NCBI GenBank assembly: GCA_015067435.1
Contig: SVMM01000008.1
Coordinates: 1-64,000 of the forward strand
Origin: Oscillospiraceae bacterium
GTDB taxonomy: Bacteria; Bacillota; Clostridia; Oscillospirales; Oscillospiraceae
Reading direction: 5' to 3'
Length of the DNA stretch: 64,000 nt
Notes under the pieces: generated by a model
The model's input: the letters and a program-made list of their open reading frames with translations, nothing else
The model's database searches: none
Told to the model about the DNA's origin: nothing
In this document: piece after piece, positions 1 through 17,001 of the stretch
How positions within the stretch are numbered: the first letter of the stretch is position 1
Layout: every line of letters begins with the position of its first letter
Position numbers and translations under genes: made by a program

Positions 1-58
1 AGAAAACATTGGCAAATCAAGGCATTTGCAAACAGCCGCAAGGCAATCTCGGGATAAC

Positions 59-1739: not shown

Positions 1740-1756
1740 TTTCTTTTCCTCCTGCG

Positions 1757-2653: not shown

Positions 2654-2691
2654 GCTATCACCTCCTGATTGCAAGCGATTGCAAGCAACTG

Positions 2692-2734
2692 TTGATTTTT
2701 TTCTGTTTTTGGTGTACACTATCGCCAAAGGAGG
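2692..2734 (+). promoter_or_regulatory. Promoter and RBS of the toxin-antitoxin pair
   Basis: TTGATT (2692-2697), a 17-base spacer and TACACT (2715-2720) form a plausible sigma-A promoter, followed by AAAGGAGG (2727-2734) eight bases before the antitoxin ATG. It overlaps the leader of the oppositely oriented TrbL-like gene. Confidence 0.55.
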
Positions 2735-2742
2735 CGATTCTG

Positions 2743-3048
2743 ATGTCAAACACTTCGCCCGTTTATGCGCGTATTGACTCCGCGCTCAAAGAGGACGCGG
2801 AAGGAATTCTTGCCCAGCTCGGCATTTCTCCGTCCAGCATGATCCAGATGCTCTACAGCCAGATCGTCATGCAGCGCGGCATCCCGTTCGACGTGAAGCT
2901 TTCCACGGCGAAGCCCGTTGCCGCGGGTTCCCTCACGCGCGAAGAGCTTGACGCGGAGCTATGGAAGGGCATCCGTTCTCTGGAAGCTGGGCGCGCCCGC
3001 TCCGCCGATGAGGTCGACGCCATGTTTGAGAGGAAATACGGAGGATGA
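2743..3048 (+). CDS. RelB/DinJ-family antitoxin
   Basis: This 101-residue protein has the ribbon-helix-helix-like start VYARIDSALKEDAEGILAQLGIS...MLYSQIVMQRGIPFDVK, the hallmark of RelB/DinJ antitoxins. Its C-terminal tail (DAMFERKYGG) would wrap the toxin. It should neutralise the ParE/RelE-like toxin and repress their shared promoter. The ATG at 2743 follows AAAGGAGG, and the stop overlaps the toxin ATG by four bases. The pair points against the surrounding transfer genes and has its own promoter, so it looks inserted between two transfer genes. It probably helps keep the ICE in the host. Confidence 0.88.
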   Translation: MSNTSPVYARIDSALKEDAEGILAQLGISPSSMIQMLYSQIVMQRGIPFDVKLSTAKPVAAGSLTREELDAELWKGIRSLEAGRARSADEVDAMFERKYGG

Positions 3049-3374
3049 AGAAGTATTCCGTCATTTACTCGGACGAAGCGATTGCGGATCTGGATGATAT
3101 CTACTGCTACATTGCGTTCCATCTGAAAGAGCGCAAGACGGCATGGGATCTGACCGCTCGGATTCGTAAGAGCATACGCGATCTTGCCGTTCAAGCAGAG
3201 ATGTGCGAGGGCGTTGATTGGGAACCGTGGCACAGCATGGACGTCCGCAAAATGCCTGTGGAGAACTACGTCGTCTACTACCTGCCGGACGCAAAGACAC
3301 ATAAGGTGCAGATTATCCGTATTTTTTACGGCGGCAGGGACGTCGAGCATATTGTCAATTCGAGCGAGGATTAA
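3045..3374 (+). CDS. ParE/RelE-superfamily toxin
   Basis: This 109-residue protein starts MKKYSVIYSDEAIADLDDIYCYI and ends with a VENYVVYYLPD...VQIIRIFYGGRDVEHIV strand pair, the usual ParE/RelE toxin layout. ParE members poison gyrase and RelE members cut mRNA on the ribosome; which applies here cannot be read from the sequence, though the long N-terminal helices favour ParE. It overlaps the antitoxin stop by four bases, which favours coupled translation. A hairpin terminator follows at once (3380-3408). Confidence 0.88.
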   Translation: MKKYSVIYSDEAIADLDDIYCYIAFHLKERKTAWDLTARIRKSIRDLAVQAEMCEGVDWEPWHSMDVRKMPVENYVVYYLPDAKTHKVQIIRIFYGGRDVEHIVNSSED

Positions 3375-3379
3375 ATCAT

Positions 3380-3408
3380 GCGGGACGGCACTGCCGTCCC
3401 GCACTTTT
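3380..3408 (+). terminator. Terminator of the toxin-antitoxin operon
   Basis: A ten-base-pair stem GCGGGACGGC / GCCGTCCCGC (3380-3389, 3393-3402) with a three-base loop is followed by ACTTTTAC. It separates the plus-strand pair from the convergent DUF3852 gene. Confidence 0.75.
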
Positions 3409-3748
3409 ACTGCCCGATGATGCCCCAGATGTAGTTGGGCGCGGTCAGCGTGAAGATGAGACACGCCAGCAGGATCGCCGGGGCCGCCCACTCAAACTGG
3501 CCGTGCTTGCGGTAGTCGAAGTAGGCGGAGCCCACCTTGACGAAGAACGCGATCACGAGGATCATGTCCAGCGCCGGGAACACGACGTTGTTGACGATGG
3601 TCTTGAGCTGGCCTGCCGCAGCAGTCCAGGTCTGCTCCACCGCGCCGGACACGTCGCCGGAACCGCCCGCCGCGAGCGCGGGGACGCACAGCAGCGCAAA
3701 CGCCGCCGCGAGCGTCAGGATCATGCAAAGGATTCTTTTGCGTTTCAT
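3407..3748 (-). CDS. DUF3852-type small membrane protein, pilin-like (VirB2/TrbC role)
   Basis: This 113-residue protein has a signal peptide (MKRKRILCMILTLAAAFALLCVPALAA), then a short linker, and two membrane segments around LDMILVIAFFVKVGSAYF and AAPAILLACLIFTLTAPNY. The YFDYRKHGQFEW block between them is the signature I associate with DUF3852 proteins of ICEs. Size and layout match VirB2/TrbC pilin subunits, so a structural role in the mating channel is likely, though inferred. The ATG at 3748 follows CGGAGG. In ICEs of this kind it sits next to the TrbL-like gene; here the toxin-antitoxin pair separates them. Confidence 0.78.
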   Translation of the reverse strand: MKRKRILCMILTLAAAFALLCVPALAAGGSGDVSGAVEQTWTAAAGQLKTIVNNVVFPALDMILVIAFFVKVGSAYFDYRKHGQFEWAAPAILLACLIFTLTAPNYIWGIIGQ

Positions 3749-3770
3749 TCAGATACCTCCGTAAAGTCTT

Positions 3771-3798
3771 GGGAGCGCCACCTTGCGATGGCGCTCCC
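3771..3798. repeat. Perfect ten-base inverted repeat between two ICE genes
   Basis: GGGAGCGCCA (3771-3780) pairs with TGGCGCTCCC (3789-3798). It lies in the 66-base gap between the 183-residue gene and the DUF3852 gene. No T-run follows, so an mRNA-stabilising or attenuating hairpin is more likely than a terminator. Confidence 0.6.
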
Positions 3799-3814
3799 GT
3801 AATGGTTGATTCGG

Positions 3815-4366
3815 TTACATGGTGAGTTCGGGCGCTTGGGACTGCGGCTCGGCAGGAGCGTAATACTCCGGCTCCATCTCGTAATCCGCCTCAGCGTCCT
3901 GCCGGTCACGAAGCTCCCACAGGATGTGACTCATATCGTCGTCTACGACGGTGCCGGAGCCGTTCATGCTCGTCCAATAGTCGCTGACCACCTCCAGCGG
4001 GTTCTTGAACCGCAGGAGATACGCCGCGTCCTCGTCCGTGACCGCTTCGGGCAGCTCCTTGAACATCCTCTGGACCGAGGCGATCTCCTCCGCGTCCTCA
4101 ATGAGCGCGGCGACGGGCTTCTGGAGCCATTCCGCCTTGTACTGCTCGAAGCAGTCCCTGAGCTTCTGCTCAAACCGTGCGCGAACATCATCTTCCTGTA
4201 AGAAATACTGGTCAAGGTTTCTGACACCGTGCTCACGGAGTTCTTCCTTGCTCATGCCAAAATGATCATGCAGGGTGGTGAACAGATCATCTTCGTTGTG
4301 GATTTGCTCACAAATCCAGCCGAACATTTCGTTATAGAGCTGGTCTTTTCTCTCTTGAGTCATCAT
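3815..4366 (-). CDS. Conserved ICE protein of unknown function (183 aa)
   Basis: An acidic, soluble protein with no signal peptide. Features include the N-terminal NEMFGWICEQIHNEDDLFTTLHDHFGMSKEELREHG region, a central KNPLEVVSDYW block and a C-terminal DDDMSHILWELRDRQDAE block. I recognise the pattern from Clostridia ICEs, possibly the DUF3848 group, but cannot assign a function. The ATG at 4366 lies three bases after the surface-protein stop with only a weak ribosome site, which suggests coupled translation. It is followed by the pilin-like and TrbL-like transfer genes. Confidence 0.7.
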   Translation of the reverse strand: MMTQERKDQLYNEMFGWICEQIHNEDDLFTTLHDHFGMSKEELREHGVRNLDQYFLQEDDVRARFEQKLRDCFEQYKAEWLQKPVAALIEDAEEIASVQRMFKELPEAVTDEDAAYLLRFKNPLEVVSDYWTSMNGSGTVVDDDMSHILWELRDRQDAEADYEMEPEYYAPAEPQSQAPELTM

Positions 4367-4369
4367 AGC

Positions 4370-6945
4370 TCAATACCCCGTGCGCGGCAGGGGCTTCGCG
4401 GGCTTGTACACCCGAGTCACCCAACGGTCCACCGCCATAATCCACTGACCGTTGTACAGACCGCCGACGTCCGCCGTGTTGCAGAACTCCGCGCCGCCGA
4501 CCAGCGTATCCAGCACCGTGCAGTAGACCTGCGGCGCTTCCACCTGACGGAAGTTCGCGGGCACAACGCCGAAGACCGCCATAAACTCCGTCACATACTC
4601 GCCGCTGCCGAGGCCGAGCGCGGCGGGGCTGGCGTTGAGCACATAGTTCTTATTTGTTGCCAGATTGTCCGCAAGGACGCGGTACTCCTCGCCGCTGTAG
4701 TTCGTCTTGTAGACGATCTTATAATTCCCGCGCGCGTTCCAGGTGCCGGTGACGATCTTATCGAGGCGGACAGCGTTCGTCGGGAGCGTATCGCGCCAAT
4801 AGAACGATTCGAGCGCCGTGTTGGAGTTGTTGGCAATGTTCGAGAAGTCATAGCGGATGCTCTGACCGGGCATGACCTCGACGTAGCCGCGCTTGGTGAT
4901 GCTGACGTTGGTATAGAGCGACTTATTGGTCATGGCCGCCCTGACGATCTGGCCCGCGAATCCGATCTCCACCTCGATGGGCGTCTTATCCAGCGCGTAG
5001 AAGTCCGCCGCCTTGGATTCGACCAGCTTGTAGCGGCCGAGCGGCAGGGGCTTGGTGGCGGCGACGCCGTTTTTGTCGGTCTTGATCGTATGGACCAGCT
5101 TGCCCGCGCGGTTATAGACCTCGAAGACGGTGTTCGGGATCGGCGTGCCCTCCGGCCAGCCGTTCATGGAGTTGTAGTCCGCGCTGGTCTTGGTGATCTG
5201 GATCTGGCCGGTAATCGGGGTGTTCTTCCAATCCACCAGCGTCACCTCGCCGCTCTTGACCACGACAGTCTTGAGCTGGGTATCCACGATATAGCCGGGA
5301 TTCTCCAGCTCCCGCAGCCGGTAAGTCCCCGCGTCGATCTCCTCGATGCGGACATAGCCGCGGTCATCCGAGGTATACTGCCCGACCACGTTGTTCTTGC
5401 TGTCGTAGAGGAGGAAGCTCACGCCGTAGATACCGTCCCCGGTGACGGCGTCGGTCTTGTGGATCTCGATGCCGCACATCGGCTTATTCGCCACGGTGAG
5501 AACCGTGGTTTTGCCGCCCTTGACCTCAAAATAATTGGGGGTGCTGTCGAGTTTGTAGTTCTTGGCGGCCACGGTCTCGACCGCGTAGTATCCGCCATCC
5601 TCCAGCGAGGCGAACGCGCGGCCGTTCGCGTCCGTGGTGACGGTGCTCACGAGAGCGCCGTCCAGCTTGCGGATCTCAAACGTGGTGTTGGGGATACGCA
5701 CGGCGCGGTTATCCGCGTTGACCTTGATGAGCTCGACGCCGCCAATGGGATAGTTGTAAAAGGTCAGCGTCTGCGTATCGTCGGGGTTGACCACGACCGT
5801 CTGCGTCTGCGTCGCCTCGTCGATGGTATAGCCGTCGATGCTCGACACCTCGGTCGCAACGATTGTCCCGACGATGCCGGAGAGCGTTATGAGGCCGTTC
5901 TTGTCGGTGGCGTACAGGCCGTCGCTCGAACGCTTGCCGCCGTCAGCGTCGACAAAGCTGCCGTCCGCGTAAATGATCTTGAAGCGGACACCCTCCAGCG
6001 GCGTTTTCCTGTCGCTGCCGTCCAGCTTGCGGATGATGAGGTTGCCAAGGGGCTTGTTGCGGAACTCCAGCTCCACGGTCTTGCCCGCCTGAATGGTGGC
6101 GACCTGCGCCGTATCGTCCAACAGATACCCCTGCTTCGCGCGAGTCTCCTTGATGACCAGCGTCGTGCCGGGTTCCATGTTCTCGATGAGGAACGTGCCG
6201 TCGCTCGCGGTCTTAAACTTTCCGTTGGCCGTTCCGACGAGCGTGCCCTCCTTCGTGGTAACGAGGAACTCGGTGTCCGCGAGCGGCTCGCCGTTGGCGG
6301 TCGACACCTTCTTGACGAGGAGGCTGCCCTTGGGGGTGTTGCCGAAGTAGAGCTGAACAACGTCCTGATCCTCGCCGGAGAGGAACGCCGTCTGCGGCGC
6401 GGAATCGATGACATGACCGTTGTCGCTGGCAAGCTCCTCGACGATATAGGTGCCGCGGATGAGTCCGGTGACCGTGAAGCTGCCGTTTGCGCCGGTCTTG
6501 TAGCGGCCGATGGCCGTGCCGCCTGTGCCGGAGGTGTCGGTCAGATAGCGGATCTCAAAGACGGCGTCGCGCACCGCCTCGCCGGTGACAGTATCGTACT
6601 TATAGACTGTGATGGCAGAGAGCGGGACGTTCTCGAATGTCATCACGGCATTGGAGCCGCCGCCGACATAGAGCGTCTGCACGGCATTGCCGTCCGGGGG
6701 CTGATAGCCGGGGACGCTCGCCAGCTCCTCTACCTTGTACCAGCCGTCGCGGAGGCGCGTCAGTGTGAACTGACCGTTCTCATCGGTATAGAACGTGCCG
6801 AGATCGTTGATCTCGCCGGTATCCGTATCGTTGGAGGAGTAGGTGACGTTGAACTTCGCGCCCTCCAGCGGCTTTCCGGTCACGGAAGAGACCTTGTTGA
6901 CCGTGAGCGTGGGCTTGCGGTGATTCTCGAAGTAGATGGTATTCC
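4370..6945 (-). pseudogene. SpaA/Cna-B repeat surface protein, front end missing
   Basis: About 855 residues of a wall-type adhesin or pilin-like stalk remain. I count seven tandem SpaA/Cna-B domains, each opening with a lysine strand (LTVNKVSS, ITVYKYDT, LLVKKVST, LIIRKLDG, VELIKVNA, IEIHKTDA, IQITKTSA) and closing near a ...NKP/NYP/NTP turn. A C-terminal domain follows, ending in LPRTGY, a sortase-like motif with no membrane anchor after it. No signal peptide, start codon or ribosome site exists: upstream of about 6,935 the frame runs through the DUF3849 gene in a different frame. Full-length relatives have a secreted N-terminus, so I read this as a deletion remnant. It could have mediated cell contact during mating. 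Confidence 0.8.
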
Positions 6946-7643
6946 AGCTTTTCCAGCGCCCATTCGGGGAGATACTGCCCGTCCAGTACGCCGCAGAAGT
7001 CCTCGCGGTTCCAGCGCGTCTCTGTTCCGTCGCCGAGGCAGGTGGCGTAGATTGCTCTGCCGCTGGCTTTCGGATCACAGCCGAAGCCGCCCGTCGCCAG
7101 CCAGAGCTGGTTCTCCGGCGACCACGCGGTTTCCTTGAGCGTTTCCGGCGAGAGGACGAGCACCTTGCCCTCCACGTTTTCATCGTACATTCCCAAGGCG
7201 CAATGCTCGCGGTCAAACAGGCCAAGCGCCTGATATGCCTCCTGCACCTGCCGCACCAGCCGGTTGACGTCCACGATTGCCGCGTCGATTTCGTAATAGC
7301 GGCCATAGTCGGAGTCCGGTATCACGTTCTGGCGGTTTGCCCACTCGCGCGCTTCGTCGTTGACGAGGCTGCGGAGCGCGGGTATCGCGTCGTTTTCTTT
7401 TACCGTATGCGCCAGCACATAGCTCACACGCTTGAATCCGTACTGCTCCAATACGGGCGCGATGTAGTCATCGGGGAGAAACGACGGATCGTTGTGGTCG
7501 GCGCGTTGGCGGATCTCCTTCTCAATGGCGCGGGCACAGCAGACGTTCTCCCGAAAACTCTTTTCCCACAGCTCCTCCTCATGTAACCGCGCGGCGTCGC
7601 CGCCGGAGCCGCGGTAAAGATACGGATAATCAGGCGTTGCCAT
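6780..7643 (-). pseudogene. DUF3849-type ICE protein, back end replaced out of frame
   Basis: The N-terminal 235 or so residues look normal: MATPDYPYLY...EEELWEKSFRENVCCARAIEKEI and YGFKRVSYVLAHTV are typical of DUF3849 proteins of Clostridia ICEs. At QYLPEWALEKLEYHLLRE (about 6,935) the frame enters surface-protein DNA in the wrong frame and reads meaningless sequence to a stop at 6780. The start ATG at 7643 follows GAGGAG and overlaps the previous gene by 14 bases. Function of the family is unknown to me. The lost back end and the lost front end of the surface gene meet at one junction, so a single deletion explains both. Confidence 0.75.
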
Positions 7644-8151
7644 AGACGATCTCCTCATCCATGAGGAGGCATTCCAGCGTTTCGAGGCAGACGCCCCTGC
7701 ACTTGAACACCTCCATCAGCGTCGGCGGCACGTCGGTCAGGTCGTGCTCGTAGTCCGCCTGCATGACCGTGACGGCGCCGGTGTCCTGATCGGGTATCGC
7801 GGTCACCTTCGCGTCCGCGGGAATGCCCGCCTGCTCGCGCAGCTCGTCCGGCAGGAAGACGTAGCCGAAGTTGTTCTCCTCGGTGAGCCCACATTGCTCG
7901 TCGCAGTCGTCGCAATAGCCTATGGTATCCGCAAGGTCGGCAAACAGTGCCGACGCGCAGCGGTTCAGCGCATGGATCGTGTCAATGAGCTCCATTGCCG
8001 TCATCTGGCTTTTGAACGCGACGATCGCGCCGGGGAGCGCGCGGTACTCCAGCGGAGTGCCGTCGATGCCGCTGACGATCAGCGCCGTGGGCGGGATATG
8101 CAGTCCGTTTTTCGTGTTTTCCTTGATGAAAGAAAGATGATTGCTGTTCAT
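7630..8151 (-). CDS. Conserved ICE protein of unknown function with a Cys cluster (173 aa)
   Basis: The protein has an N-terminal region with PTALIVSGIDGTPLEYRALPGAIVAFKSQMTAMELIDTIHAL, a YCDDCDEQC cluster that could bind a metal, a FLPDELREQAGIPADAKV segment reminiscent of AbrB-type strands, and a second CRGVC pair. No catalytic motif is evident. Its ATG overlaps the stop of the D12 methyltransferase (ATGA) and its end overlaps the DUF3849 start, so all three are translated from one message. I do not recognise a function. Confidence 0.65.
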   Translation of the reverse strand: MNSNHLSFIKENTKNGLHIPPTALIVSGIDGTPLEYRALPGAIVAFKSQMTAMELIDTIHALNRCASALFADLADTIGYCDDCDEQCGLTEENNFGYVFLPDELREQAGIPADAKVTAIPDQDTGAVTVMQADYEHDLTDVPPTLMEVFKCRGVCLETLECLLMDEEIVYGNA

Positions 8152-8999
8152 GGCTGTAAAAGCCCTCCATTCATATTAAAGAGTGTGGTTTGTCCCATCA
8201 GAAGCTGGGACGGATCGTTAAGATCATAGTTGGCGATGAGCAGCTCCGGGAACTCCGCGCCGCTCTCGAAACGCTGGCGCATATTGTGCGGACGTTTTTT
8301 CTCCAGCAGGTAGATGCCCTTGCAGTCATAGAGCTTCCTCACAAATTCATCGTCGTTGTATGAGAGCAGGAACAGTCCGTTTATACTCAGAAGCGTATCC
8401 CGCAAAAGGATGTGCTTTCTAATGTCGAAGCCGCCGACATTCTTATAGAACTTTTCCGAATCGTGATACGGCGGATCGCAGTAGAAGAAGCTGGTCGGGC
8501 GGTCGTAGTGCCGGATCACGCGCTCGAAGCTCCCGTGCTCGACCACGACGTTCGCAAGCCGCGCCGTCGCCATGTCGATGATCGGAAAATCGGAGCGGAT
8601 ATCGTGCGGCTGGGCTGCAAAGCTGTCGAGGCCGGATGCGTAGGAATAGCGGATGAGCTGGTAGTAATACGCCGCCCTGCGGTAGTCCGCCATCCGCGCG
8701 TTGGGATCGTTCATCACCTTGCGGATACGGTCAAACTCCTGCCGGGAGTTGAGCGAGTATTTGAGGAGCTTTTTCATCCGGCGCGCCTTGCTCCGATTCT
8801 GCACGCAGCGGAAGAGATTGACCAGCAGGCCGTTGAAGTCGTTGTAGACTTCAAAATCGCCTCTCGGCTGCTTGTGGAAGAGCACCCAGCCTCCGCCGCC
8901 GAAGACCTCGATATAGCGGTCATAGTGGAACGGGAAGTGCTGCACGATCTCGTCGCGCAGCGCCTTTTTGCCGCCCACCCAGCTAATAAAGCTGTTCAC
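8148..8999 (-). CDS. D12-class DNA adenine N6-methyltransferase (Dam-like)
   Basis: This 283-residue enzyme should methylate adenine N6 in a specific DNA site using SAM. The motif I region FISWVGGKKALRDEI and EVFGGGGWVLF sit at the N-terminus, and the catalytic DPPY is in SFFYCDPPYHDSE, followed by SYNDDEFVRKLY. This order is typical of the D12 class. I place the start at the GTG at 8999, which overlaps the stop of the upstream gene (GTGA) and follows GGAGGGGG. No restriction partner is adjacent, so it is an orphan methyltransferase, likely shielding the ICE from host restriction. The target site cannot be read from the sequence. Confidence 0.9.
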   Translation of the reverse strand: MNSFISWVGGKKALRDEIVQHFPFHYDRYIEVFGGGGWVLFHKQPRGDFEVYNDFNGLLVNLFRCVQNRSKARRMKKLLKYSLNSRQEFDRIRKVMNDPNARMADYRRAAYYYQLIRYSYASGLDSFAAQPHDIRSDFPIIDMATARLANVVVEHGSFERVIRHYDRPTSFFYCDPPYHDSEKFYKNVGGFDIRKHILLRDTLLSINGLFLLSYNDDEFVRKLYDCKGIYLLEKKRPHNMRQRFESGAEFPELLIANYDLNDPSQLLMGQTTLFNMNGGLLQP

Positions 9000-9367
9000 G
9001 GCGGGCCACCCCCTCCGCTCTTGCTGGGGACGGTCGGGGAACGTATCCGCTCCTCCGGCAGCAGCGTCGTCTGCGCCGTATCGAACTGCTCCAGCGCCTG
9101 CGTGAGCCCGCGGATAGCGGCGGCGATGCCGCCGATGCGGTGCGTCATGTGCGCGATGGTCGCGCGCACCTCCTGCTCGGTCGCGGCGTAGAAGTAGCCC
9201 GCACCGCTGCTGGCAATGGGGACGCCGCTGCGCCGCAGGGTATTGACGAGGTCGCGCAGTTCCTTGCCGCGGATATCGAACGCCGTTTCCAGATCGCGGC
9301 TGGTGGCGGCGTTCCGCTCGCCAAGGTGGTATCGTTTGAGATGCTCCGCGATGGTTTCTTTTTCCAT
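8996..9367 (-). CDS. Small ICE protein, probable winged-helix DNA-binding fold
   Basis: A 123-residue protein: MEKETIAEHLKRYHLGERNAATSRDLETAFDIRGKELRDLVNTLRRSGVPIASSGAGYFYA has the helix-turn-helix and wing pattern of small phage or ICE DNA-binding proteins. A helical stretch (VRATIAHMTHRIGGIAAAIRGL) follows. The ATG at 9367 follows AAAGGAG. The longer frame to 9463 would run through a strong terminator, so I reject that start. It is coupled to the adenine methyltransferase by a GTGA overlap, so it may regulate or assist it. That link is inferred. Confidence 0.68.
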   Translation of the reverse strand: MEKETIAEHLKRYHLGERNAATSRDLETAFDIRGKELRDLVNTLRRSGVPIASSGAGYFYAATEQEVRATIAHMTHRIGGIAAAIRGLTQALEQFDTAQTTLLPEERIRSPTVPSKSGGGGPP

Positions 9368-9416
9368 TTCGCTCCTTTCCGGGGCGTGTTTTCCCGAAAA
9401 GGGCGCAAATAGGCAT

Positions 9417-9456
9417 AAAAAACAGGGGCCGCTGTCCCCATCGGGAAACGGCCCCT
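9417..9456 (-). terminator. Strong minus-strand terminator ahead of the methyltransferase operon
   Basis: Read on the minus strand, AGGGGCCG (9456-9449) pairs with CGGCCCCT (9431-9424), followed by GTTTTTT (9423-9417). It would stop transcripts arriving from the ArdA-like operon, so the genes from 9367 onward need a promoter of their own or read-through. Confidence 0.75.
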
Positions 9457-9487
9457 TGTTCAAAATGTCGATTTTAACTGTTTGCTC

Positions 9488-9516
9488 TTGCGCCTGCCTT
9501 ATGGATGAGCTATACT
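9488..9516 (+). promoter_or_regulatory. Promoter of the 89-residue plus-strand gene
   Basis: TTGCGC (9488-9493), 17 bases, TATACT (9511-9516), followed by GGGAGG (9531-9536) and a GTG at 9544. This supports the plus-strand gene being real in an otherwise minus-strand region. Confidence 0.6.
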
Positions 9517-9543
9517 ACCCCTTGTGTGATGGGAGGGGTTCAA

Positions 9544-9813
9544 GTGCCATATCTGCCGGAGGAAGCCGCCGTCATCGACGGTCTGATCTGCGATTATCTG
9601 ATTTCGCCGCGCCTTGAGAGCGGTATCCGGGACGGGTATCGTTCGGTGCATGAGCATCTTCAGAGCAACGATCTGACAAGCGCGGATTATCAGCGTATTC
9701 TCTCGGCAATCGACTTTCTGCTCCCCACGCGGCGTGACGATCCGACTGAGTATCGGATCATGGTCAGCGCCCTTGCCAAAACCAGCGCGGTGCTGTCCGG
9801 CGTCATAGAGTAA
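9544..9813 (+). CDS. Small ICE protein of unknown function (89 aa)
   Basis: The product begins VPYLPEEAAVIDGLICDYLISPRLESGIRDGYRSVHEHL and ends in a helical segment, all soluble and helix-rich, with no motif I can name. It has its own promoter, a GTG start eight bases behind GGGAGG, and its own terminator, all in a stretch where neighbours run the other way. That independence suggests a small regulator or a cargo gene. The function is unknown. Confidence 0.6.
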   Translation: MPYLPEEAAVIDGLICDYLISPRLESGIRDGYRSVHEHLQSNDLTSADYQRILSAIDFLLPTRRDDPTEYRIMVSALAKTSAVLSGVIE

Positions 9814-9818
9814 GCGCG

Positions 9819-9852
9819 AACCGGCGTGAGCGATCTGCTCCGCCGGTTTTTA
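9819..9852 (+). terminator. Terminator after the 89-residue gene
   Basis: AACCGGCG (9819-9826) pairs with CGCCGGTT (9841-9848) and is followed by a T-run to 9851. It overlaps the stop of the convergent ArdA-like gene. Confidence 0.7.
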
Positions 9853-10869
9853 TATGATCTGCTCCATTGACATTGCGCTCTGCGTCATCTGCTGCTCCTG
9901 CTGCCGGGGCTTGAGATAGACGCTCTCCGTGCGGTCGAGGCGGTATCCGCTCCGTTCGAGGGAGTCCTCGGCGAAGCCGGTCAGGTCAAACAGTCCCGCC
10001 TCAATGAGCGCCTCCGGTGCGCCCGCTTTTTTCAGTTCGGTTTTCGCGTAGTCCTCCAGCTTGTCAACCATGACGAAGCTGAACCGTCTGATCTCCTCAG
10101 CGCAGCCGATCACATCCTTGAGCGTGCGGCAGTCGTCGTACTCCATCGCCGCGGCGAGCTTCCGCTCGAAGCCCTGCATCCCCTGCGCACGCTCGTCCAG
10201 AAGGAAGCCGAGGTTGTTACCGTCGTAGATCAGATCCACGGGATCGTCATACTGTTCCATGAGATTTCCTGCTTCGGGGAAGATGCATTTGGCGTCTGCC
10301 AGAGTGCATTTGCTCACGCTCTGGACGCCGAGTTCCCGAAGCGCGAGGGCGGCTTCGTCGGGAGCGCCGTCGTTGGCGTCCGAATAATCAGGCAGGCGCA
10401 GCCAGACGCCCTCCGGCTTGGCGGGGGAGGCCAGCTTGACTTTGACGCTCCAATCCTCGTCCTTGAGAGTTGCGAGATTTGTGCCGTCATATGGTTTCTG
10501 CTGCTCTCCGGTCGGGTACATGACGTAGCAGTCGTCGATGAACAGTCCGGGGTGACTGTCCTCAAAGGCAACGCCCAGCGCCTCCATATCCGTGTGCGCC
10601 AGCACCAGCTCCGGGAGATCCAGATTTGCGTCGGTGAGATAGAACCTTCCCAAGTCCTCGTAGCCATGAGCGGGAAAGCATATCTCGTAGTCCTGCAAGC
10701 TCGCCAGCAGATTGATCGCGTCCAAGGCGGTTTCGGGCGGGGTGTGCTGCCGCGCCGCGGCGAGGATAATGGATTCTTTTGCCGAGAGCGTCGAGAGGCG
10801 TTCCTCCATCCAGTCGCCCTCGGCACGGGTATGCGGAAGGTGGAAGAATTCGTTGTTGTCGGTGTTCAT
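9850..10869 (-). CDS. ArdA-like antirestriction family protein (339 aa)
   Basis: Last of four coupled, related genes. ArdA proteins are acidic DNA mimics that bind and block type I restriction enzymes. This member is acidic and contains the segments LADAKCIFPEAGNLMEQYDD, CRTLKDVIGCAEEIRRFSFVMVDKLEDYAKTEL and a C-terminal ALIEAGLFDLTGFAEDSLERSGYRL that parallels the ArdA 'tyrosine...glycine-tyrosine' ending. It closes with a glutamine/methionine-rich tail. ATGA overlap with the previous gene shows coupled translation. Assignment is by resemblance to its neighbours and to large ArdA-like proteins of Clostridia ICEs; direct similarity to classical ArdA is weak. Confidence 0.6.
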   Translation of the reverse strand: MNTDNNEFFHLPHTRAEGDWMEERLSTLSAKESIILAAARQHTPPETALDAINLLASLQDYEICFPAHGYEDLGRFYLTDANLDLPELVLAHTDMEALGVAFEDSHPGLFIDDCYVMYPTGEQQKPYDGTNLATLKDEDWSVKVKLASPAKPEGVWLRLPDYSDANDGAPDEAALALRELGVQSVSKCTLADAKCIFPEAGNLMEQYDDPVDLIYDGNNLGFLLDERAQGMQGFERKLAAAMEYDDCRTLKDVIGCAEEIRRFSFVMVDKLEDYAKTELKKAGAPEALIEAGLFDLTGFAEDSLERSGYRLDRTESVYLKPRQQEQQMTQSAMSMEQII

Positions 10870-11531
10870 CCCTGCGTCATCTCCATTCCGCCCATCGTGG
10901 GCTGTTCCTTCTGGTTTTCCGCCATGAGCGGCTGGCAGTCCACGCGCTGCACCCTGCCGTAGTCGGTGAGCGCGAATTGTTCCCTTTCCTGCAGCGCGCG
11001 TCCGTACTGGTAGAGGTTCACATGAGGGAGGAGCACCTCCGCTGCCTCGTCGCCGAGACAGAAGCGCAGGTCGTATTCCGCGGTTTCCTCAAAGGTGCGC
11101 ATCTCCGGGGAGAGAAGATACTCGTCGATCCGCTCGGCGAAGTCGAGCGCCGCGCCCAGCTCCGTGACCTCCATTGCCGTTATAAGCGCGCGGAAGATTT
11201 TGAGCTGGCTTTCTGTCAGCGTCGCAAGCTGGTCGGCGGCGCGGCAGGCGTCGGCAAGGCTGTTCGCGTCGGTGAGCGCGTCCCGCAGCGCCGGGGCGCG
11301 GCAGTCGAGGCAGAGGCACGGGACTTCGCTCAAATCACGCGCGCCCGTGAGCGCCATTGCCGCGTCCAGCTCTGCGGGCGGGGCGGGCAGCGCCAGCGTC
11401 ACGTTGTCGTTCGGGTCCGGCGCAATCAGCTCCACGAGAATGGCGTAGTCCGGTTTGCGCGGCGTCAAGTCCAGCGATTTCCAGACGTCCTGTGCCAGGT
11501 CGCCGTCCTGGGCAACATAGCCGCCCCTCAC
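10866..11531 (-). CDS. ArdA-like antirestriction family protein (221 aa)
   Basis: An acidic protein with two internal helical parts (ITAMEVTELGAALDFAERIDEYLL) and the ArdA-like ending VNLYQYGRALQEREQFALTDYGRVQR, followed by a Q/M-rich tail (EQPTMGGMEM). Start and stop overlap the neighbouring genes by ATGA, so it is translated with them. Expected role is decoying type I restriction enzymes during entry into a new host; this is inferred from the family. Confidence 0.65.
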   Translation of the reverse strand: MRGGYVAQDGDLAQDVWKSLDLTPRKPDYAILVELIAPDPNDNVTLALPAPPAELDAAMALTGARDLSEVPCLCLDCRAPALRDALTDANSLADACRAADQLATLTESQLKIFRALITAMEVTELGAALDFAERIDEYLLSPEMRTFEETAEYDLRFCLGDEAAEVLLPHVNLYQYGRALQEREQFALTDYGRVQRVDCQPLMAENQKEQPTMGGMEMTQG

Positions 11532-12145
11532 AATGACGCCGCCCTCGCCATCTGCATATTGCCCATCGTCTGCTCCGGCGTGACTTGCCTTTCCTGCTCG
11601 GCGAGCATCGGCTCCGCGGAGCCGCGGCGCAGGGTGTACCCGTCGCCGGTGAACGCGCCGCCGCGCTCGGCGTAGTATTCGATGCCGATTGCCTCGTAGT
11701 CGAGATACGGCTTGACGCTTTCGGGAAAGTCCTTGTAGCCGGTGTCCACGAGGAATCTACCCAGCTCCTTTTCGGTCGTGACGCCGTGGATGAAGATATA
11801 TTCGCCCAGCGAGTCGGCGATCCGCAGGACGTCGGCGACGCTGCCAAACGCCGCTCCTGCCAGCGCGCCGTCAAAGGTCTTGCGCTGCTGTTCGTTCATC
11901 TGGCCGATCTTCTCCGCAAGCTCGCCCAGCTCGATGTAATCGCCGGGGCGGTCCATCTTCCGGTCGCGGAGCCAGCAATCCAGCGAGCCGACGCCTGTGT
12001 CCGCTCTGAGGATGCGGGTTTGGCGGTCGTTCGTGCTGACGGCATCCAGCTTTTCATATGCCGCGGCGATGTCTGCAGGCTCCGCGGGCAGTTGCAGGCC
12101 GACACAGCGCCCGCTGTTGTCCCTCGCCAGTGTCAGGATCATCAC
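11528..12145 (-). CDS. ArdA-like antirestriction family protein (205 aa)
   Basis: An acidic protein ending with TTEKELGRFLVDTG...PYLDYEAIGIEYYAERGGAFTGDGYTLRR, the clearest ArdA-like pattern of the four, in which a Tyr/Gly ladder closes the domain. A Q/M-rich tail (EQTMGNMQM) follows. ATGA overlaps on both sides. Likely an inhibitor of restriction endonucleases that acts soon after conjugative entry. That role comes from family knowledge and is not visible in the sequence. Confidence 0.7.
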   Translation of the reverse strand: MMILTLARDNSGRCVGLQLPAEPADIAAAYEKLDAVSTNDRQTRILRADTGVGSLDCWLRDRKMDRPGDYIELGELAEKIGQMNEQQRKTFDGALAGAAFGSVADVLRIADSLGEYIFIHGVTTEKELGRFLVDTGYKDFPESVKPYLDYEAIGIEYYAERGGAFTGDGYTLRRGSAEPMLAEQERQVTPEQTMGNMQMARAASL

Positions 12146-13341
12146 ATCATGCCTCCCATCATCTGTCCCTGTTCTTCCTTCTGCTCCCGCTGATACGCCT
12201 CGGCGGGATCTTCCATCATCAACTCGTCGAGGCTCATCGCGCCGGTATAGCCGATATAGCCCAGCTCGTTGAACGCGCCAGCCTGCTCCCGGACTCGCTG
12301 TTCGCCATACTTGGCGTAGTCGTAAAACCCGTCGAGGTTCGGATCGAACTCAAAGCGCCCGGACTGTTGGATCATGAATCTGCCGAGTTCCTCCGGCGTT
12401 TTGATGTTCGGGACGAACTCGAAGAGGTCGAGGTTTTCTGCCAAGCGTCGCACCTGCATGGCATATTCCGGCTCCGCCAACAGCACAGCAGCGGCGAGAC
12501 GGTCCATAGAAGCGTCGTCCAGCTTTTCAACCGCTTGGAACATTCTGTTCAGCTCAATCAAGCCTTCGTGCGCCATATTGAGCCGATCCTCAATCTGTTT
12601 CGGCAAATCGCTCCGCCATGTGGCGATCTGAACGTCCTCCGCAGACCGATAGCCGCCACGCTCCAACAGACGCTCCAACCTCTTTTCTGGCGTTGGCAGG
12701 AGCAGCACCGTTGGCTGCGTGCCCTCCGACAGCGGCGTGAGTTCCATTTCCATGAGATATGCCTTGTCATAGTAGACGGGGAAGTTCTGTCCCGTGTAGC
12801 TCGGTTCAAGCTGAAAGCCGTTGTCGAAGACAACGCCGCTCGGCGTGACCGTGCCTTTGCCCGTGGCAATGAGGTCGCGGATGAGCTTCTCGCCACCCAG
12901 CGATTCCAGCACACTCACCGGCTCACCACCGCCGTGTGTGTCCATGTAGTGGTCTTTTCCGGCTCTGTTGAGATCCTCAAAGTTGGTGATGACCGTCGCC
13001 TGCTCACAGCCGAAAGACAGGTTGATAAAGCCTTGGATGTCCTTGATCCCCAGCTTGTACGCCATGCCTTCGAACTTGTCCTGCTCGTTGCCCCAATACC
13101 GCTCGATGCTCCGGGCGAGGAAGTCCAGCTCGTCGATGTTGACCTCCTGTCCCTCCAGCACATCCAGCGCGGCGGGGGAGCGGTCGAGCCTGTCAATGTG
13201 GCAGTCTCTTTCCGTAACGCCGCCGATTCCTAACTGCTCCAGCAGCTCCATGCTGTGGGCGTACTCCTCGTCCGGGATGGGCAGCGGGATCGTGGCGCAG
13301 CCCCAATCGGGGTGCTGCCCGTTACAGATGATTGCGTTCAT
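12142..13341 (-). CDS. Large ArdA-like antirestriction protein (399 aa)
   Basis: The N-terminal 230 or so residues resemble other ICE 'antirestriction' proteins (MNAIICNGQHPDWGCATIPLPIPDEEY...LDFLARSIERYWGNEQDKFEGMAYKLGI). The C-terminal part carries FVPNIKTPEELGRFMIQQSGRFEFDPNLDGFYDYAKYGEQ and GAFNELGYIGYTG, the ArdA-like ending. The tail is GQMMGGMM. It heads the run of four coupled genes, and its start overlaps the Cys-rich small gene by 20 bases. It probably mimics DNA to block restriction enzymes. The larger N-terminal part has no function I can name. Confidence 0.7.
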   Translation of the reverse strand: MNAIICNGQHPDWGCATIPLPIPDEEYAHSMELLEQLGIGGVTERDCHIDRLDRSPAALDVLEGQEVNIDELDFLARSIERYWGNEQDKFEGMAYKLGIKDIQGFINLSFGCEQATVITNFEDLNRAGKDHYMDTHGGGEPVSVLESLGGEKLIRDLIATGKGTVTPSGVVFDNGFQLEPSYTGQNFPVYYDKAYLMEMELTPLSEGTQPTVLLLPTPEKRLERLLERGGYRSAEDVQIATWRSDLPKQIEDRLNMAHEGLIELNRMFQAVEKLDDASMDRLAAAVLLAEPEYAMQVRRLAENLDLFEFVPNIKTPEELGRFMIQQSGRFEFDPNLDGFYDYAKYGEQRVREQAGAFNELGYIGYTGAMSLDELMMEDPAEAYQREQKEEQGQMMGGMM

Positions 13342-13597
13342 TTTTCCGTTTCTTCTCCTTTTCTGCGATTTCTCGCACCTCCGTTAATAGGCAATGCTCC
13401 TCGTCGTGCCAGCAGATGAACCCGTCAGACGTATACGGACAGCCCTCACATCGTTCAAATTTGGTGCAAACGGGCTTTTCGGGCTCATCCCGCCTTGTTT
13501 CCGGCGCATGACAGGTCGTGAAGTATTCTCTGCCGCTTGCAAAGAGGTGGTAGCTTGTTTGGTGATATTTCAGTCGTTCCACACATTTTTCCTCCAA
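13322..13597 (-). CDS. Small Cys-rich ICE protein (91 aa)
   Basis: A basic-to-acidic 91-residue protein with seven cysteines, most in the C-terminal half (KPVCTKFERCEGCPY...GFICWHDEEHC), suggesting a zinc or iron-sulphur site. The ATG at 13597 follows GGAGG at a short spacing. It overlaps the 399-residue gene, which it precedes in the operon. A strong terminator lies immediately upstream (13612-13658), so this operon either depends on read-through or starts inside the upstream gene. The function is unknown to me. Confidence 0.65.
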   Translation of the reverse strand: MEEKCVERLKYHQTSYHLFASGREYFTTCHAPETRRDEPEKPVCTKFERCEGCPYTSDGFICWHDEEHCLLTEVREIAEKEKKRKNERNHL

Positions 13598-13611
13598 AAG
13601 CTCCGAAAATG

Positions 13612-13658
13612 AAAAAAGAGCCGGGGCTTTCCGATTGTGGTTCGGAAAACCTCGGCTC
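13612..13658 (-). terminator. Long-stem terminator between the 235-residue gene and the ArdA-like operon
   Basis: On the minus strand GAGCCGAGGTTTTCCGAA pairs with TCGGAAAGCCCCGGCTC, a near-perfect stem of about 17 pairs, followed by TTTTTT (13617-13612). It ends the 235-residue gene. Only 14 bases separate it from the next start, which leaves no room for a promoter. Confidence 0.8.
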
Positions 13659-14366
13659 TCAGTACATGGTCTGGGTCTGTGATTGATATTGTCTGCTCAG
13701 TTCCAGCTCCCGCTGGTTGGATAGATTCACGCGCTGCTCCAGATCGGGGACCGTCCGCTCGATCTGCTCCGCCGCCGCTTGCAGCAGCTTTTCGCGTTCT
13801 GCCGTGATGGGATAGGTGCTCTCCAGCGTTTCGTGAATACATCGGTAGACCTCCGTGAGCTGATCTTTGGAAAAAAGCTGGTCGCGCTCGATCAGCCCCG
13901 CCCTCATGCAGAAGTCGCGCTTGGCGTTGGCGTACTCGTCCTCAAAGTAGTGTCCCGCCCATACGCCGGTGCGGTCAAAGTTCCACTCCCACGTGACGAA
14001 CTTGACGCCATGCGAGGTGGGATGCCCCGCCAGCACCGCGCCGCCAAAGTCGGCGAGGAGCTTGTAGTTCTCGTCCAGCCCGCTTGCTTTGAGGACAGGT
14101 GCGGCGTCCATGAGTTCCATGTACTGTCTAACCTCTCTTGCAATGTCGACCGCGCGGTCGAATGCCTCGCGCCCGCCGTCGCGGTCAAGCTCCTCCTCGC
14201 GGAACTGCGCGCCGCCGCCCGCGGTCACGCGGCAGAGCGGTTCGCCAAGCCAGGTCACGGGGAGGAGGCCGTCCTTCATCGGCCCAACGCCGTAGCCTTC
14301 TCCGGCAAGCCGGATCGCCAACTCCTTGTAGTATCTGTCGCAGGATTCGATGTTGATTTCGCTCAT
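13659..14366 (-). CDS. Conserved ICE protein of unknown function (235 aa)
   Basis: Starts MSEINIESCDRYYKELAIRLAGEGYGVGP and carries LLADFGGAVLAGHPTSHGVKFVTWEW...GHYFEDEYANAKRDFCMRAGL, a block I associate with ICE accessory proteins of unknown role. The second half is helical and ends in a short Q-rich tail. The start ATG at 14366 follows AAAAAGGAG at a normal distance; the longer frame to 14405 lacks one. A degenerate copy of its first codons lies on the far side of the ATPase-nuclease cassette (16,558-16,596). Confidence 0.68.
   Translation of the reverse strand: MSEINIESCDRYYKELAIRLAGEGYGVGPMKDGLLPVTWLGEPLCRVTAGGGAQFREEELDRDGGREAFDRAVDIAREVRQYMELMDAAPVLKASGLDENYKLLADFGGAVLAGHPTSHGVKFVTWEWNFDRTGVWAGHYFEDEYANAKRDFCMRAGLIERDQLFSKDQLTEVYRCIHETLESTYPITAEREKLLQAAAEQIERTVPDLEQRVNLSNQRELELSRQYQSQTQTMY
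14343..14357. repeat. 15-bp direct repeat, copy 1 (flanks the ATPase-nuclease cassette)
   Basis: GGATTCGATGTTGAT is identical to 16573-16587 and in the same orientation. Similarity extends over about 29 bases on one side with five differences. It falls in the first codons (INIES) of the 235-residue gene. Confidence 0.8.
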
Positions 14367-14423
14367 GTTGTTCTCCTTTTTGGAATTTGCTGTGTTCTTG
14401 CCCATATGTGTGTTAAAATAGGC

Positions 14424-14452
14424 TTGTATCTATTATTCTGCTGTGGTATACT
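14424..14452 (+). promoter_or_regulatory. Promoter of the ATPase-nuclease cassette
   Basis: TTGTAT (14424-14429), 17 bases, TATACT (14447-14452). It lies about 95 bases before the ATPase start, giving a leader of roughly 85 bases. Confidence 0.6.
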
Positions 14453-14546
14453 TAATAAAATGCGAGATAATTCGAAAATGATAAAGGATACTTTTAACTG
14501 TAGCAGTATTCTGATAGTTATAATGATGTTTGAGGGAGCTGATGCT

Positions 14547-15914
14547 ATGACTGAAATAACAAACAGTCAGGATCTGTCCAATAATCGAGTGGCGGTAAGG
14601 CGGATCAGTATTGATAACTTTGGCGCTTTGGGAAGAATTTCGTTACGATTAGATCGCCCGCTTCAGGTGATCATTGGACCTCAGGCATCCGGAAAGAGTA
14701 CGCTCGGAAAGTCGATTTATTTTTGCAGAAAAATTCGTGACTATCTTTCTGACTATGCCCGAGAAGTATTAAATGGGCAAATCCAAAGTGAATACTACAC
14801 TAATTTTCTAAAGTATCTCAGAAACCCTTTTATGGGATGCTTTGGAACAACAAAGCATATGGACCGGTTCACTATCCGGTTCACTTATGATGAGATAGCC
14901 AATAAATATGTATCAATTAGTCTTGACAAGGATCGCTATGCTTCATTTCAGTTTAGCGATAGTCTTCGAGTAGAAATCGAGAATCTGTTCCGTGAACTAG
15001 TTCACACGGCGGAGCGTATTCCAGACTCTATCACAGATGCATATTTTGCTCAACGTGATATTCTTGAATTAATAAAGCGGCAGGCCAAAAAAATTTTCGC
15101 AGATGATGAAAACCTCCTTTATATTCCGGCAGGTCGCAATCTGCTGGCAACAGTTCCGGATTTGATCCAGCCTGATCCAGATGCAACAAGAAGTATGCTG
15201 CATATAGATTTCAGCCGCACGGATTTGATTACGCAGGAGTTTATTAGATACATTCAACAAATGCGGGCAAGATTTGGTTCTAAGTTGGAGGAAATAACAC
15301 AAAACTATCTAAAAACCGTCAAGGGACAGATTCGAAACAAAGACGTTGAGCTTGCGTGTGATCTTGTAAAGAAGATACTAAAGGCTGAGTATGTCTGCGA
15401 TAGGGACGGAGAAAAGCTGTATTACGAGGACAACAAGTGGGTCAAGCTGATGTTCGGCTCATCTGGCCAGCAGGAGGTCTTGTGGGCTCTAAACTGTATT
15501 TTCCTTGCCATATTGCAGAACGAAAAAACATTTTTAGTGTTTGAAGAACCTGAATCACACATTTTTCCAGATGCACAAGAGCTAATCGCCGAGCTAGTTT
15601 CTTTAATGATTCATTCCAGTGGAAGCGAGGTTTTGTTGACAACACACAGCCCATATATGCTCACGGCTATCAATCTCTTGATCTATTCTGGTAAAGTGGA
15701 AAAAAGCAATGAGTCTGCTATCGTGGAGCGCCAGTTCCGCATGAAATCAGGCTCTGTAGCTGCATACTTGCTTCCCGGTAGCAAGAAGAACGCAATTAAC
15801 TTGATCGATCCCACCCGGGGGCTTATTGATGCGCTGCAAATAGATGGCGTCTCTGATCGAATAAATGAACGGATGGATGAACTTCTCAACAGGCAGATTG
15901 CACAGAAAGAATAA
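14547..15914 (+). CDS. OLD/ABC-type AAA ATPase, probable defence-system sensor
   Basis: This 455-residue ATPase has Walker A GPQASGKST (44-52), an ABC-like signature SSGQQE (about 305-310), Walker B with FLVFEEPESH (333-334 are the catalytic EE) and a THSPYML switch near 365. That order is typical of AAA_15/AAA_21 ATPases in OLD, Gabija, PARIS and Septu-like immunity. There is no Toprim domain, so a separate effector is expected; the next gene fits. The ATG at 14547 follows GGGAG. The cassette is visibly AT-rich: one line counted by hand (15061-15120) has 21 G/C of 60, against 39 of 60 at 17221-17280. It sits at the ICE end, a common cargo site. The defence role is inferred. Confidence 0.82.
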   Translation: MTEITNSQDLSNNRVAVRRISIDNFGALGRISLRLDRPLQVIIGPQASGKSTLGKSIYFCRKIRDYLSDYAREVLNGQIQSEYYTNFLKYLRNPFMGCFGTTKHMDRFTIRFTYDEIANKYVSISLDKDRYASFQFSDSLRVEIENLFRELVHTAERIPDSITDAYFAQRDILELIKRQAKKIFADDENLLYIPAGRNLLATVPDLIQPDPDATRSMLHIDFSRTDLITQEFIRYIQQMRARFGSKLEEITQNYLKTVKGQIRNKDVELACDLVKKILKAEYVCDRDGEKLYYEDNKWVKLMFGSSGQQEVLWALNCIFLAILQNEKTFLVFEEPESHIFPDAQELIAELVSLMIHSSGSEVLLTTHSPYMLTAINLLIYSGKVEKSNESAIVERQFRMKSGSVAAYLLPGSKKNAINLIDPTRGLIDALQIDGVSDRINERMDELLNRQIAQKE

Positions 15915-15926
15915 GGTGACTGAGAA

Positions 15927-16553
15927 ATGATGTGTGGACAGTTTCCTACATGCGTAGAGACATTCAAGCATGAAGAAAAACCTGTGAAAGTCAAGGGCTT
16001 AAATAAAAGCAAAAAGAAAGCGAATACCACTGAGATAAAGCATATTTACACAGGCTATCCATGCGGAGACGCAAACAAAAGGGAGCGCTGTGTCTGCTTC
16101 TCAGATACTCGTTCAAAACCGAGTTGCACAGAGAACGGAAAAACCTATACACTTGACCATGGCGGAGCAAATGTTGAGGTTTTGTGTATGCATATTGATG
16201 GCGGAGTAGTAGATGATGCTGAATCCCAAAGATGTGACTATGCTTATTTCGTAAGGGATAAAGTAGATCACGGTCACGGACGAGCAATTTTTATTGAATT
16301 GAAAGGTAGCAATACACGAACAGCACTAAAGCAGTTAATCGTAACGCTTGATATGCCGGAAGTCAATGCGCTAAAAAGAAGTTATAAAAGGATATACGGT
16401 AGGGTGGTCAATACGTCCAGCGTGCCGAGGATTCAGAATACTGGCTTATATATGGATTTGAAAGAGAAATTGAAGCGCATGGGTGGCAATTTGAAAATCG
16501 GTGAGTGGAATCTCGTTGAACCCTATAATAAACTTGATATTGCAAATGGGTGA
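15927..16553 (+). CDS. Small PD-(D/E)xK-like nuclease paired with the ATPase
   Basis: A 208-residue protein. Its core reads RCDYAYFV, then 17 or so residues, then AIFIELKGSNTRTALKQL: D104, E124 and K126 match the D...ExK metal-binding triad of PD-(D/E)xK nucleases, with a following helix containing Q. A basic YKRIYGRVVNTSSVPRIQNT segment and an LKEKLKRMGGNLKI ending follow. The N-terminal third holds several Cys (YPCGDANKRERCVC...KPSC), possibly a metal site. It starts 12 bases after the ATPase stop with AAGGTG before the ATG (15927 or 15930), so the two are one operon. I read it as the effector nuclease. I do not know a named system with this exact pair. Confidence 0.7.
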   Translation: MMCGQFPTCVETFKHEEKPVKVKGLNKSKKKANTTEIKHIYTGYPCGDANKRERCVCFSDTRSKPSCTENGKTYTLDHGGANVEVLCMHIDGGVVDDAESQRCDYAYFVRDKVDHGHGRAIFIELKGSNTRTALKQLIVTLDMPEVNALKRSYKRIYGRVVNTSSVPRIQNTGLYMDLKEKLKRMGGNLKIGEWNLVEPYNKLDIANG

Positions 16554-16557
16554 GATG

Positions 16558-16596
16558 ATAGTATCCGCCTCGGGATTCGATGTTGATCTTTTCCAC
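16558..16596 (-). pseudogene. Severed start of a gene related to the 235-residue ICE protein
   Basis: A perfect AAGGAGG (16610-16604) stands seven bases before a GTG at 16596. The next codons read VEKINIESRGGYY, matching MSEINIESCDRYY at the start of the gene at 14366. The match stops at about 16558, next to the nuclease stop, so only about 13 codons remain. It suggests the cassette entered, or recombined at, the start of a duplicate of that gene. Confidence 0.6.
16573..16587. repeat. 15-bp direct repeat, copy 2
   Basis: Identical to 14343-14357 and in the same orientation. It lies within the severed gene start just beyond the nuclease gene, so the two copies bracket the ATPase-nuclease cassette. 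Confidence 0.8.
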
Positions 16597-16619
16597 TTGA
16601 TGACCTCCTTGAAAATAAT

Positions 16620-16668
16620 AACGCTTTGCCTCGCCATGAAATAAGAATAGAATGACGAGCAAAGCGTT
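16620..16668. repeat. Inverted repeat in the ICE terminal non-coding region
   Basis: AACGCTTTGCCTCG (16620-16633) and CGAGCAAAGCGTT (16656-16668) pair apart from one bulged base, with a 22-base loop. It precedes the ribosome site of the severed gene start. It could be a leader hairpin or part of the recombination region; I cannot tell which. Confidence 0.55.
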
Positions 16669-16770
16669 GTCGGCTAAGTATTGACTTTTTGCGGATATGT
16701 AGTATGTGATGCTAATGCACGGATGAAGCAAGATTTGGGCTGTTTTTGATAGGGACTTGTGGCATTTTTA

Positions 16771-16810
16771 GGAGCACATCAGGAGCACGGGCGCACAAAA
16801 AGCGCACAAC
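16771..16810. repeat. Cluster of four short GAGCAC/GCGCAC direct repeats near the ICE end
   Basis: GGAGCACATCAGGAGCACGG is followed by GCGCACAAAAAGCGCAC. The spacing and the position, about 115-150 bases inside the attachment site, resemble arm-type sites of tyrosine integrases. This reading is inferred. The rest of 16,669-16,924 is AT-rich and holds no gene that I can see. Confidence 0.4.
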
Positions 16811-16924
16811 GCTTTGGTACGGCGCTCAACAATACATGACAATAAGTTAAGATAATCTCGATGATATTAGATTATATCAGACTTTCTTAACAAAATTGTT
16901 AGAAATTCTCGGCAAGATGGCCCG

Positions 16925-16969
16925 TTCGGGACCAAGAGGCCGTGGGTTCAAATCCCGCCACTCGGACCA
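16925..16969 (+). other. ICE attachment site: 3' fragment of tRNA-Pro(CGG)
   Basis: The fragment reads from the anticodon loop TTCGGGA (16925-16931, anticodon CGG at 16927-16929) through the 3' anticodon strand CCAAG, the T-arm (16942-16958), the 3' acceptor strand CACTCGG (16959-16965), discriminator A and an encoded CCA (16967-16969). No D-arm or 5' acceptor strand lies upstream, so it is not a whole tRNA. Integration into a tRNA leaves a whole gene at one end and such a fragment at the other. The original tRNA terminator follows, so this is the chromosomal 3' half. The element side ends at about 16,924. Confidence 0.85.
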
Positions 16970-16977
16970 TAAAAAAA

Positions 16978-17001
16978 GACGGGCATCGCCCGTCTTTTTT
17001 T
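16978..17001 (+). terminator. Former tRNA-Pro terminator
   Basis: GACGGGC (16978-16984), loop ATC, GCCCGTC (16988-16994), then a run of seven T. It directly follows the tRNA-Pro CCA end. Confidence 0.85.

Follow-up and report, generated by a model that had tools for sequence, protein, structure and literature searches.

A WonAB-like ATPase–nuclease gene pair at the cargo end of an integrative and conjugative element from an Oscillospiraceae bacterium

Introduction

Does an ATPase gene followed by a small nuclease gene at the end of an integrative and conjugative element (ICE) represent a new kind of anti-phage system, or a member of one already described? The question is raised by a two-gene cassette in a stretch of 64,000 nucleotides (hereafter the window; positions 1 to 64,000 of contig SVMM01000008.1, assembly GCA_015067435.1) from an Oscillospiraceae bacterium. 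A preliminary description of the locus proposed the cassette as a candidate new defence system and stated that no named system was known to join an ATPase of this type to such a nuclease. The latter statement does not hold, as WonAB, an operon of this architecture, has been published and tested (PMC12137116). We read the pair as a divergent representative, located on an ICE, of a kind that is already known. The proposed role in phage defence stands as the most probable one; the claim of novelty does not. By analogy, and with a probability of roughly 0.8, we consider the pair a WonAB-like anti-phage module, carried as ICE cargo, which would act abortively through an ATPase-controlled nuclease. 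The pair adds no new kind of system; with it, a defence type that was described only recently, and for the most part from Gram-negative bacteria, is also represented on an ICE of the Oscillospiraceae group.

The ATPase and Nuclease Genes

The first gene of the cassette (positions 14547–15914, plus strand) encodes an OLD/ABC-type, WonA-like ATPase of 455 residues. The ATG at 14547 is considered the best start, because a GAGGGAG ribosome-binding site lies upstream of it and the resulting length agrees with that of the relatives. The protein matches the Pfam families AAA_15 (4.2e-22) and AAA_21 (5.8e-17), and contains a Walker A lysine (K50), a PAGR motif (R197), SSGQQE at residues 305–310, EEPE at 333–336 and THSPY (H367). 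After a gap of 12 bases (15915–15926) it is followed by the second gene (15927–16553, plus strand), which encodes a putative small PD-(D/E)xK-type, WonB-like nuclease of 208 residues. No Toprim match was found by Pfam in either protein. Characteristic residues of the nuclease are D91, D104, E124-x-K126 and Q136; they are preceded by an N-terminal extension (residues 1–56) with cysteines at positions 3, 9, 46 and 55. The Toprim-less AAA_15/AAA_21 ATPase, the 12-base gap and the 208-residue protein with its D104...E124-x-K126 triad had all been pointed out in the preliminary description and are borne out here.

The triad is invariant in the relatives. In an alignment of the window protein with nine relatives (20–38% identity to it), D91, G92, D104, E124, L125, K126, G127, A133 and Q136 are kept in all ten rows; D104, E124, L125, K126, G127 and Q136 are also invariant in a second, partly overlapping set of 12 rows (the window protein and 11 relatives). 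The window nuclease had no credible match in Pfam and no match in NCBIfam, and HNH domains were detected by the Pfam scan neither in it nor in its relatives. The assignment of the PD-(D/E)xK fold is a prediction from the motif and a model, with no strong structural match among those listed. A hexokinase match (Pfam 0.013; PDB chains down to 5.8e-4) was taken as chance, because it is short, below the family cut-off and present in only one of ten members.

Co-Occurrence and Co-Divergence of the Two Genes

In all 24 distinct places where a member of the nuclease family was located, the ATPase gene lies directly upstream on the same strand. Thirteen of these places were fetched by the ATPase, and show only that the nuclease lies beside it; nine, outside the genus, were fetched by the nuclease and show the reverse; the remaining two are the window and its copy in a genus mate, the metagenome-assembled genome SIG461. 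Twelve of the 24 originate from a collection of viral contigs and one (L016) from a faecal phage record, in which the frame upstream of the pair (L016:2682–4004) is, by eye, presumably SIR2-like. Two of the places are damaged, L046 by stop codons and L025 by a short ATPase frame.

The distances among the ATPases and among the nucleases of 20 pairs are strongly correlated (r 0.879; none of 9999 permutations in a Mantel test reached this value), which indicates that both genes travel together; part of the correlation may reflect shared host ancestry. The tree and the test omitted the identical copy in SIG461, the broken L046, and both L021 and L026, which nearly duplicate L020. The deep order of the tree is unsure owing to long branches. 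Profile comparison of the window nuclease and its clade (three rows) with ten relatives from viral contigs (hhalign, 98.4%, E 6.9e-15) and with the other clostridial clade (98.7%) indicates that the homology of the nucleases spans viral contigs and Clostridia.

The family is sparsely distributed. Within the genus the nuclease occurs in two of 18 genomes. Counting the window's own genome, real distant relatives were present in 4 of 200 genomes drawn from the family, 3 of 394 from the order, 3 of 391 from the class and 5 of 398 from the phylum; these draws overlap, and those for the order and the class each gave a fourth, false match. Used alone as a query, the window nuclease retrieved only its own copy among genome contigs and nothing from viral contigs, plasmids or phages, and the first nuclease alignment matched no viral contig; the relatives were obtained from whole-genome searches and from ATPase alignments. 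Outside the genus, nuclease searches matched 11 genomes, nine of the matches being real and all nine accompanied by the ATPase. Two candidates were rejected and are not among the 24 places: L007 (E 0.0016), which has an internal stop and overlaps a frame of 424 residues, and L011 (E 0.005), located inside a frame of 917 residues.

The ten-row ATPase alignment matched 27 loci on viral contigs. In 12 of them a nuclease gene adjoins the ATPase gene, and these are exactly the loci with a profile score of at least 207 bits; four of them had themselves been used to build the profile. None of the 15 remaining loci (at most 131 bits) was matched by the nuclease profile. Gabija-type helicases are seen by eye at five of these, and others have unrelated open reading frames (ORFs) or none nearby.

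Some relatives deserve mention in their own right. The stop-broken pair L046/L056 lies within an apparent run of glycosyltransferase genes, as judged by eye. L006 (positions 1793–2728; the same as L053) encodes an ATPase of 311 residues in which about 126 residues are absent between Walker A and PAGR; it keeps its motifs and its nuclease, and is possibly a minimal form.

Relation to WonAB and Other Known Systems

According to its published description, WonAB consists of two genes in one operon, for an OLD-ABC ATPase and for a PD-(D/E)xK nuclease, and comes from the WASA-1 prophage of V. cholerae; it protects this host from ICP1 and, in E. coli, is active against Vequintavirinae (PMC12137116). 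Defence is described as requiring both genes, the ATPase motifs (K34, R182, E300, H333) and K71 of the nuclease (PMC12137116). A further account agrees on WonAB (PMC12409358). All WonAB homologues detected (0.96% of genomes) are reported to be encompassed by a wider family named "OLD-ABC ATPase + Novel REase" (PMC12137116); the underlying in silico survey is ref. 33 of that paper and is cited as Krishnan et al. in PMC12409358. In BREX contexts, too, OLD-ABC ATPases are described that have HNH, PD-(D/E)XK and PIN nucleases as partners (PMC12839542).

The window pair resembles WonAB, as described, in the succession of a Toprim-less OLD-ABC ATPase and a small PD-(D/E)xK nuclease, in its location on mobile DNA and in putative catalytic motifs of the same kind, but differs in its clostridial host and ICE, as opposed to a Vibrio prophage. 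The kinds of motif needed in WonA are kept (a Walker A lysine, an arginine near position 182, a Walker B glutamate and an H-loop histidine), as assigned by motif and position, and the counterpart of WonB K71 would by motif be the invariant lysine of ELKG, Lys126, WonB having been compared by description only. WonB is given as 16.1 kDa, in contrast to the 208 residues of the window nuclease with its cysteine-bearing N-terminal extension. The nucleases of L020, L021 and L026 have a lysine at position 71 and a mass of 16.1 kDa, as printed for WonB (PMC12137116). Of the relatives, L020 comes closest to WonB in size and lysine position, although the numbering of its ATPase differs from that of WonA; it shares with the window pair 24% identity in the ATPase and 22% in the nuclease. 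A search for the WonAB sequence with a published primer gave no match. As the comparison was made by description, motif and relatives only, we call the pair "WonAB-like": in architecture and family it matches a system that already has a name, and a relationship to WonAB itself is probable by analogy. The architecture is likewise that of the OLD-ABC ATPase + Novel REase operons, membership being judged by the description in the citing papers. A limited literature search yielded no experiment on a pair of this kind from any Gram-positive bacterium.

Other systems with related ATPases have different effectors. In Septu, PtuA is partnered by the HNH protein PtuB, in contrast to the invariant D...ExK partner in the window. 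As far as the available descriptions go, AriA of PARIS has a Toprim partner, and GajA of Gabija a fused Toprim plus a helicase.

Among the PADLOC models the window ATPase matched, in order, AriA, NsnB, PD-T4-4_A (1.2e-15) and PDC-M29A (1.6e-15), but its nuclease matched none, including PDC-M29B at E 1 or 0.1. PDC-M29A, matched by all ten ATPase rows, is unspecific, since the other three models score equally well or better for the window. For the ATPases of L020 and L028 it ranks first among the PADLOC models. PDC-M29B was matched by six of the 16 family nucleases scanned (L005, L006, L010, L013, L020 and L023), among them those of the nearest relatives, L005 (6.4e-4) and L006 (4.6e-8). PDC-M29, a PADLOC candidate system named in no paper found in the limited literature search, thus covers part of the family with the exception of the window nuclease, and the current models miss this protein yet catch its nearest relatives.

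PD-T4-4 is, as described, also an operon of an ATPase and a nuclease and itself lies in an ICE-like element (PMC9519451). Its model PD-T4-4_A is, however, matched far better by the ATPases of L041 (2.8e-43), L033 (4.9e-36) and L030 (1.7e-23), for all of which it is the best PADLOC match and which fall on another side of the tree from the window. The comparison was made through the partners at these PD-T4-4_A-like loci, not the PD-T4-4 sequences themselves: the ELKS/EMKS partners gave no profile match with the window nuclease clade (E 0.018) or with the ten viral-contig nucleases (E 0.33). Of the partners of L030, L041 and L033, only that of L033 matched PADLOC, and weakly (PDC-M47B, 0.0092). 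Such parallel pairs, AAA_15 ATPases followed by proteins of about 200 residues with D...ELKS or EMKS, were observed at L030:2460–4498, L031:1307–3357, L032:4903–6956, L041:4960–6978, L042:4960–7002 and L033:5266–7201. At L029:5965–7883 a 433-residue ATPase relative that lacks PAGR and SSGQQE precedes a protein of 203 residues in which no ExK motif is visible by eye; this pair is unassigned.

The Cassette as Optional Cargo of the ICE

That the cassette occupies the end of the ICE is supported by positions 16924–16974 (plus strand), which repeat the 3' 51 nt of a tRNA-Pro gene with a 98% match and mark the attachment (att) end. The intact counterpart of this repeat, a tRNA-Pro(CGG) gene, lies on contig C36 of the same genome with an integrase alongside, and C36 and the window are likely the two ends of one element. 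Thirteen loci, among them that of SIG461 and the own genome's second copy, were scanned for an empty ICE site beside tcdA; three had an intact tRNA-Pro near tcdA, L121 in the window's orientation and L117 and L123 in the opposite one. A tRNA-Leu gene was considered as the att site and discarded. On the inner side the cassette adjoins a conserved ICE gene (13659–14366, minus strand), matched in 30 of 200 genomes of the family at E 1e-10; its product of 235 residues matched nothing in Pfam at E 0.001. The same genome contains a second ICE end (G000:C10, L091) with 90% identity along 784 nt, an alignment that ends just beyond the start of this flanking gene, and no cassette was found in the 6 kb read beyond the aligned stretch; the cassette is therefore optional cargo. 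In SIG461 (L002), a second species, the region 13010–16978 is 99.6% identical and 14406–16553 is identical base for base, which shows recent transfer.

The cassette has a G+C content of 41.3%, compared with 59.8% in the ICE part to its left and 62.9% in positions 16975–64000; the 2-kb stretch of lowest G+C in the window begins at 14401 (0.413; window mean 0.614, standard deviation 0.043). The claims of marked AT-richness and of a place at the cargo end of an ICE are confirmed and supported, respectively. As to a promoter of its own, which is plausible, a consensus scan of 14300–14546 reported none, but a fair candidate of the extended -10 type (TTGTAT-17-TATACT with TG before the -10), which falls under the scan threshold, is seen by eye at 14424–14452 on the plus strand. 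As to the bracketing direct repeats, an exact 15-bp repeat does occur, only twice, at 14343 and 16573, but it sits inside a 29-nt repeat of 86% identity (14329–14357 and 16559–16587) that represents two starts of one minus-strand ICE gene, namely the flanking gene and a remnant of a second copy. Over 53 nt the remnant (16558–16610, minus strand) matches, at 77%, the beginning of the flanking gene as found at the genome's second ICE end. Since both repeats derive from the start of a single gene, transposon-type boundaries or insertion repeats of the cassette were ruled out.

Proposed Mode of Action and Alternatives

By analogy with WonAB, the ATPase would dimerise around ATP and, by means of its C-terminal extension, hold or stabilise the small nuclease; docking of the nuclease on the C-terminal extensions of the ATPase dimer has been modelled for WonAB. 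A trigger arising after entry or replication of the phage genome would shift the state of the ATPase and license the nuclease, which would then cut nucleic acid, most likely host tRNA or rRNA. The outcome would be a halt of translation and an abortive infection with no release of phage. The 20 diverse pairs offer a choice of tractable homologues for finding the trigger and the target.

An alternative is direct cleavage of phage or plasmid DNA by the nuclease, with the ATPase as the sensor of foreign DNA, in a Gabija- or restriction-like manner and with survival of the host. The PD-(D/E)xK fold does not separate DNA from RNA targets, but overproduction of WonB is described as arresting growth and stopping translation with chromosomal DNA intact (PMC12137116), and PARIS, with its related ATPase, is reported to cut tRNA; we regard DNA targeting as a minor possibility. 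More improbable is a module of element maintenance or exclusion, serving the ICE as an addiction system or against competing plasmids and ICEs and not mainly against phages. The last position in the ICE and the second ICE end devoid of the pair agree with such a role; the relatives, which lie on viral contigs or, as read by eye from the ORFs around 14 loci, in diverse other settings, do not, and for WonAB, whose nuclease is described as toxic only together with the ATPase, a simple toxin–antitoxin mode is argued against on the ground that the nuclease without the ATPase is non-toxic (PMC12137116). Finally, the pair might be degraded or non-functional cargo, as the site has been rearranged, judging from the duplicated and truncated start of the flanking gene, and as the relative L046/L056 is broken by stops. 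We consider this highly improbable: neither ORF is interrupted, no motif is missing, and the base-for-base identity in SIG461 reflects recent transfer.

Within the preferred reading of an abortive, WonAB-like module, the window, L005 and L006 might constitute a Gram-positive subtype of their own within the WonAB kind, in which the nuclease gained the N-terminal cysteine stretch, possibly a zinc module. The three nucleases all open with M-x-C-x5-C, and such a module, if real, might set another target, e.g., another RNA, or bind the phage trigger. Weighing against a separate subtype, one to three N-terminal cysteines occur in several other relatives too, the grouping with L006 has tree support of 89/94, which is not firm, and the idea draws on three sequences, so that it is doubtful.

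Other Features of the Element

The distal part of the ICE present in the window (1–16974) also encodes TrbL, a D12 adenine methylase and a C5 methylase, and gives a weak Pfam match to ArdA (1.1e-4), which is under the cut-off of that family; together with the integrase and the tRNA-Pro repeat, these matches mark the element as an ICE. The C5 methylase sequence (59–2438, minus strand) appears to span two overlapping frames, and is perhaps frame-broken or affected by an assembly slip. Near the integrase on contig C36 lies an ORF that appears MazF-like by eye (L113:5617–5985).
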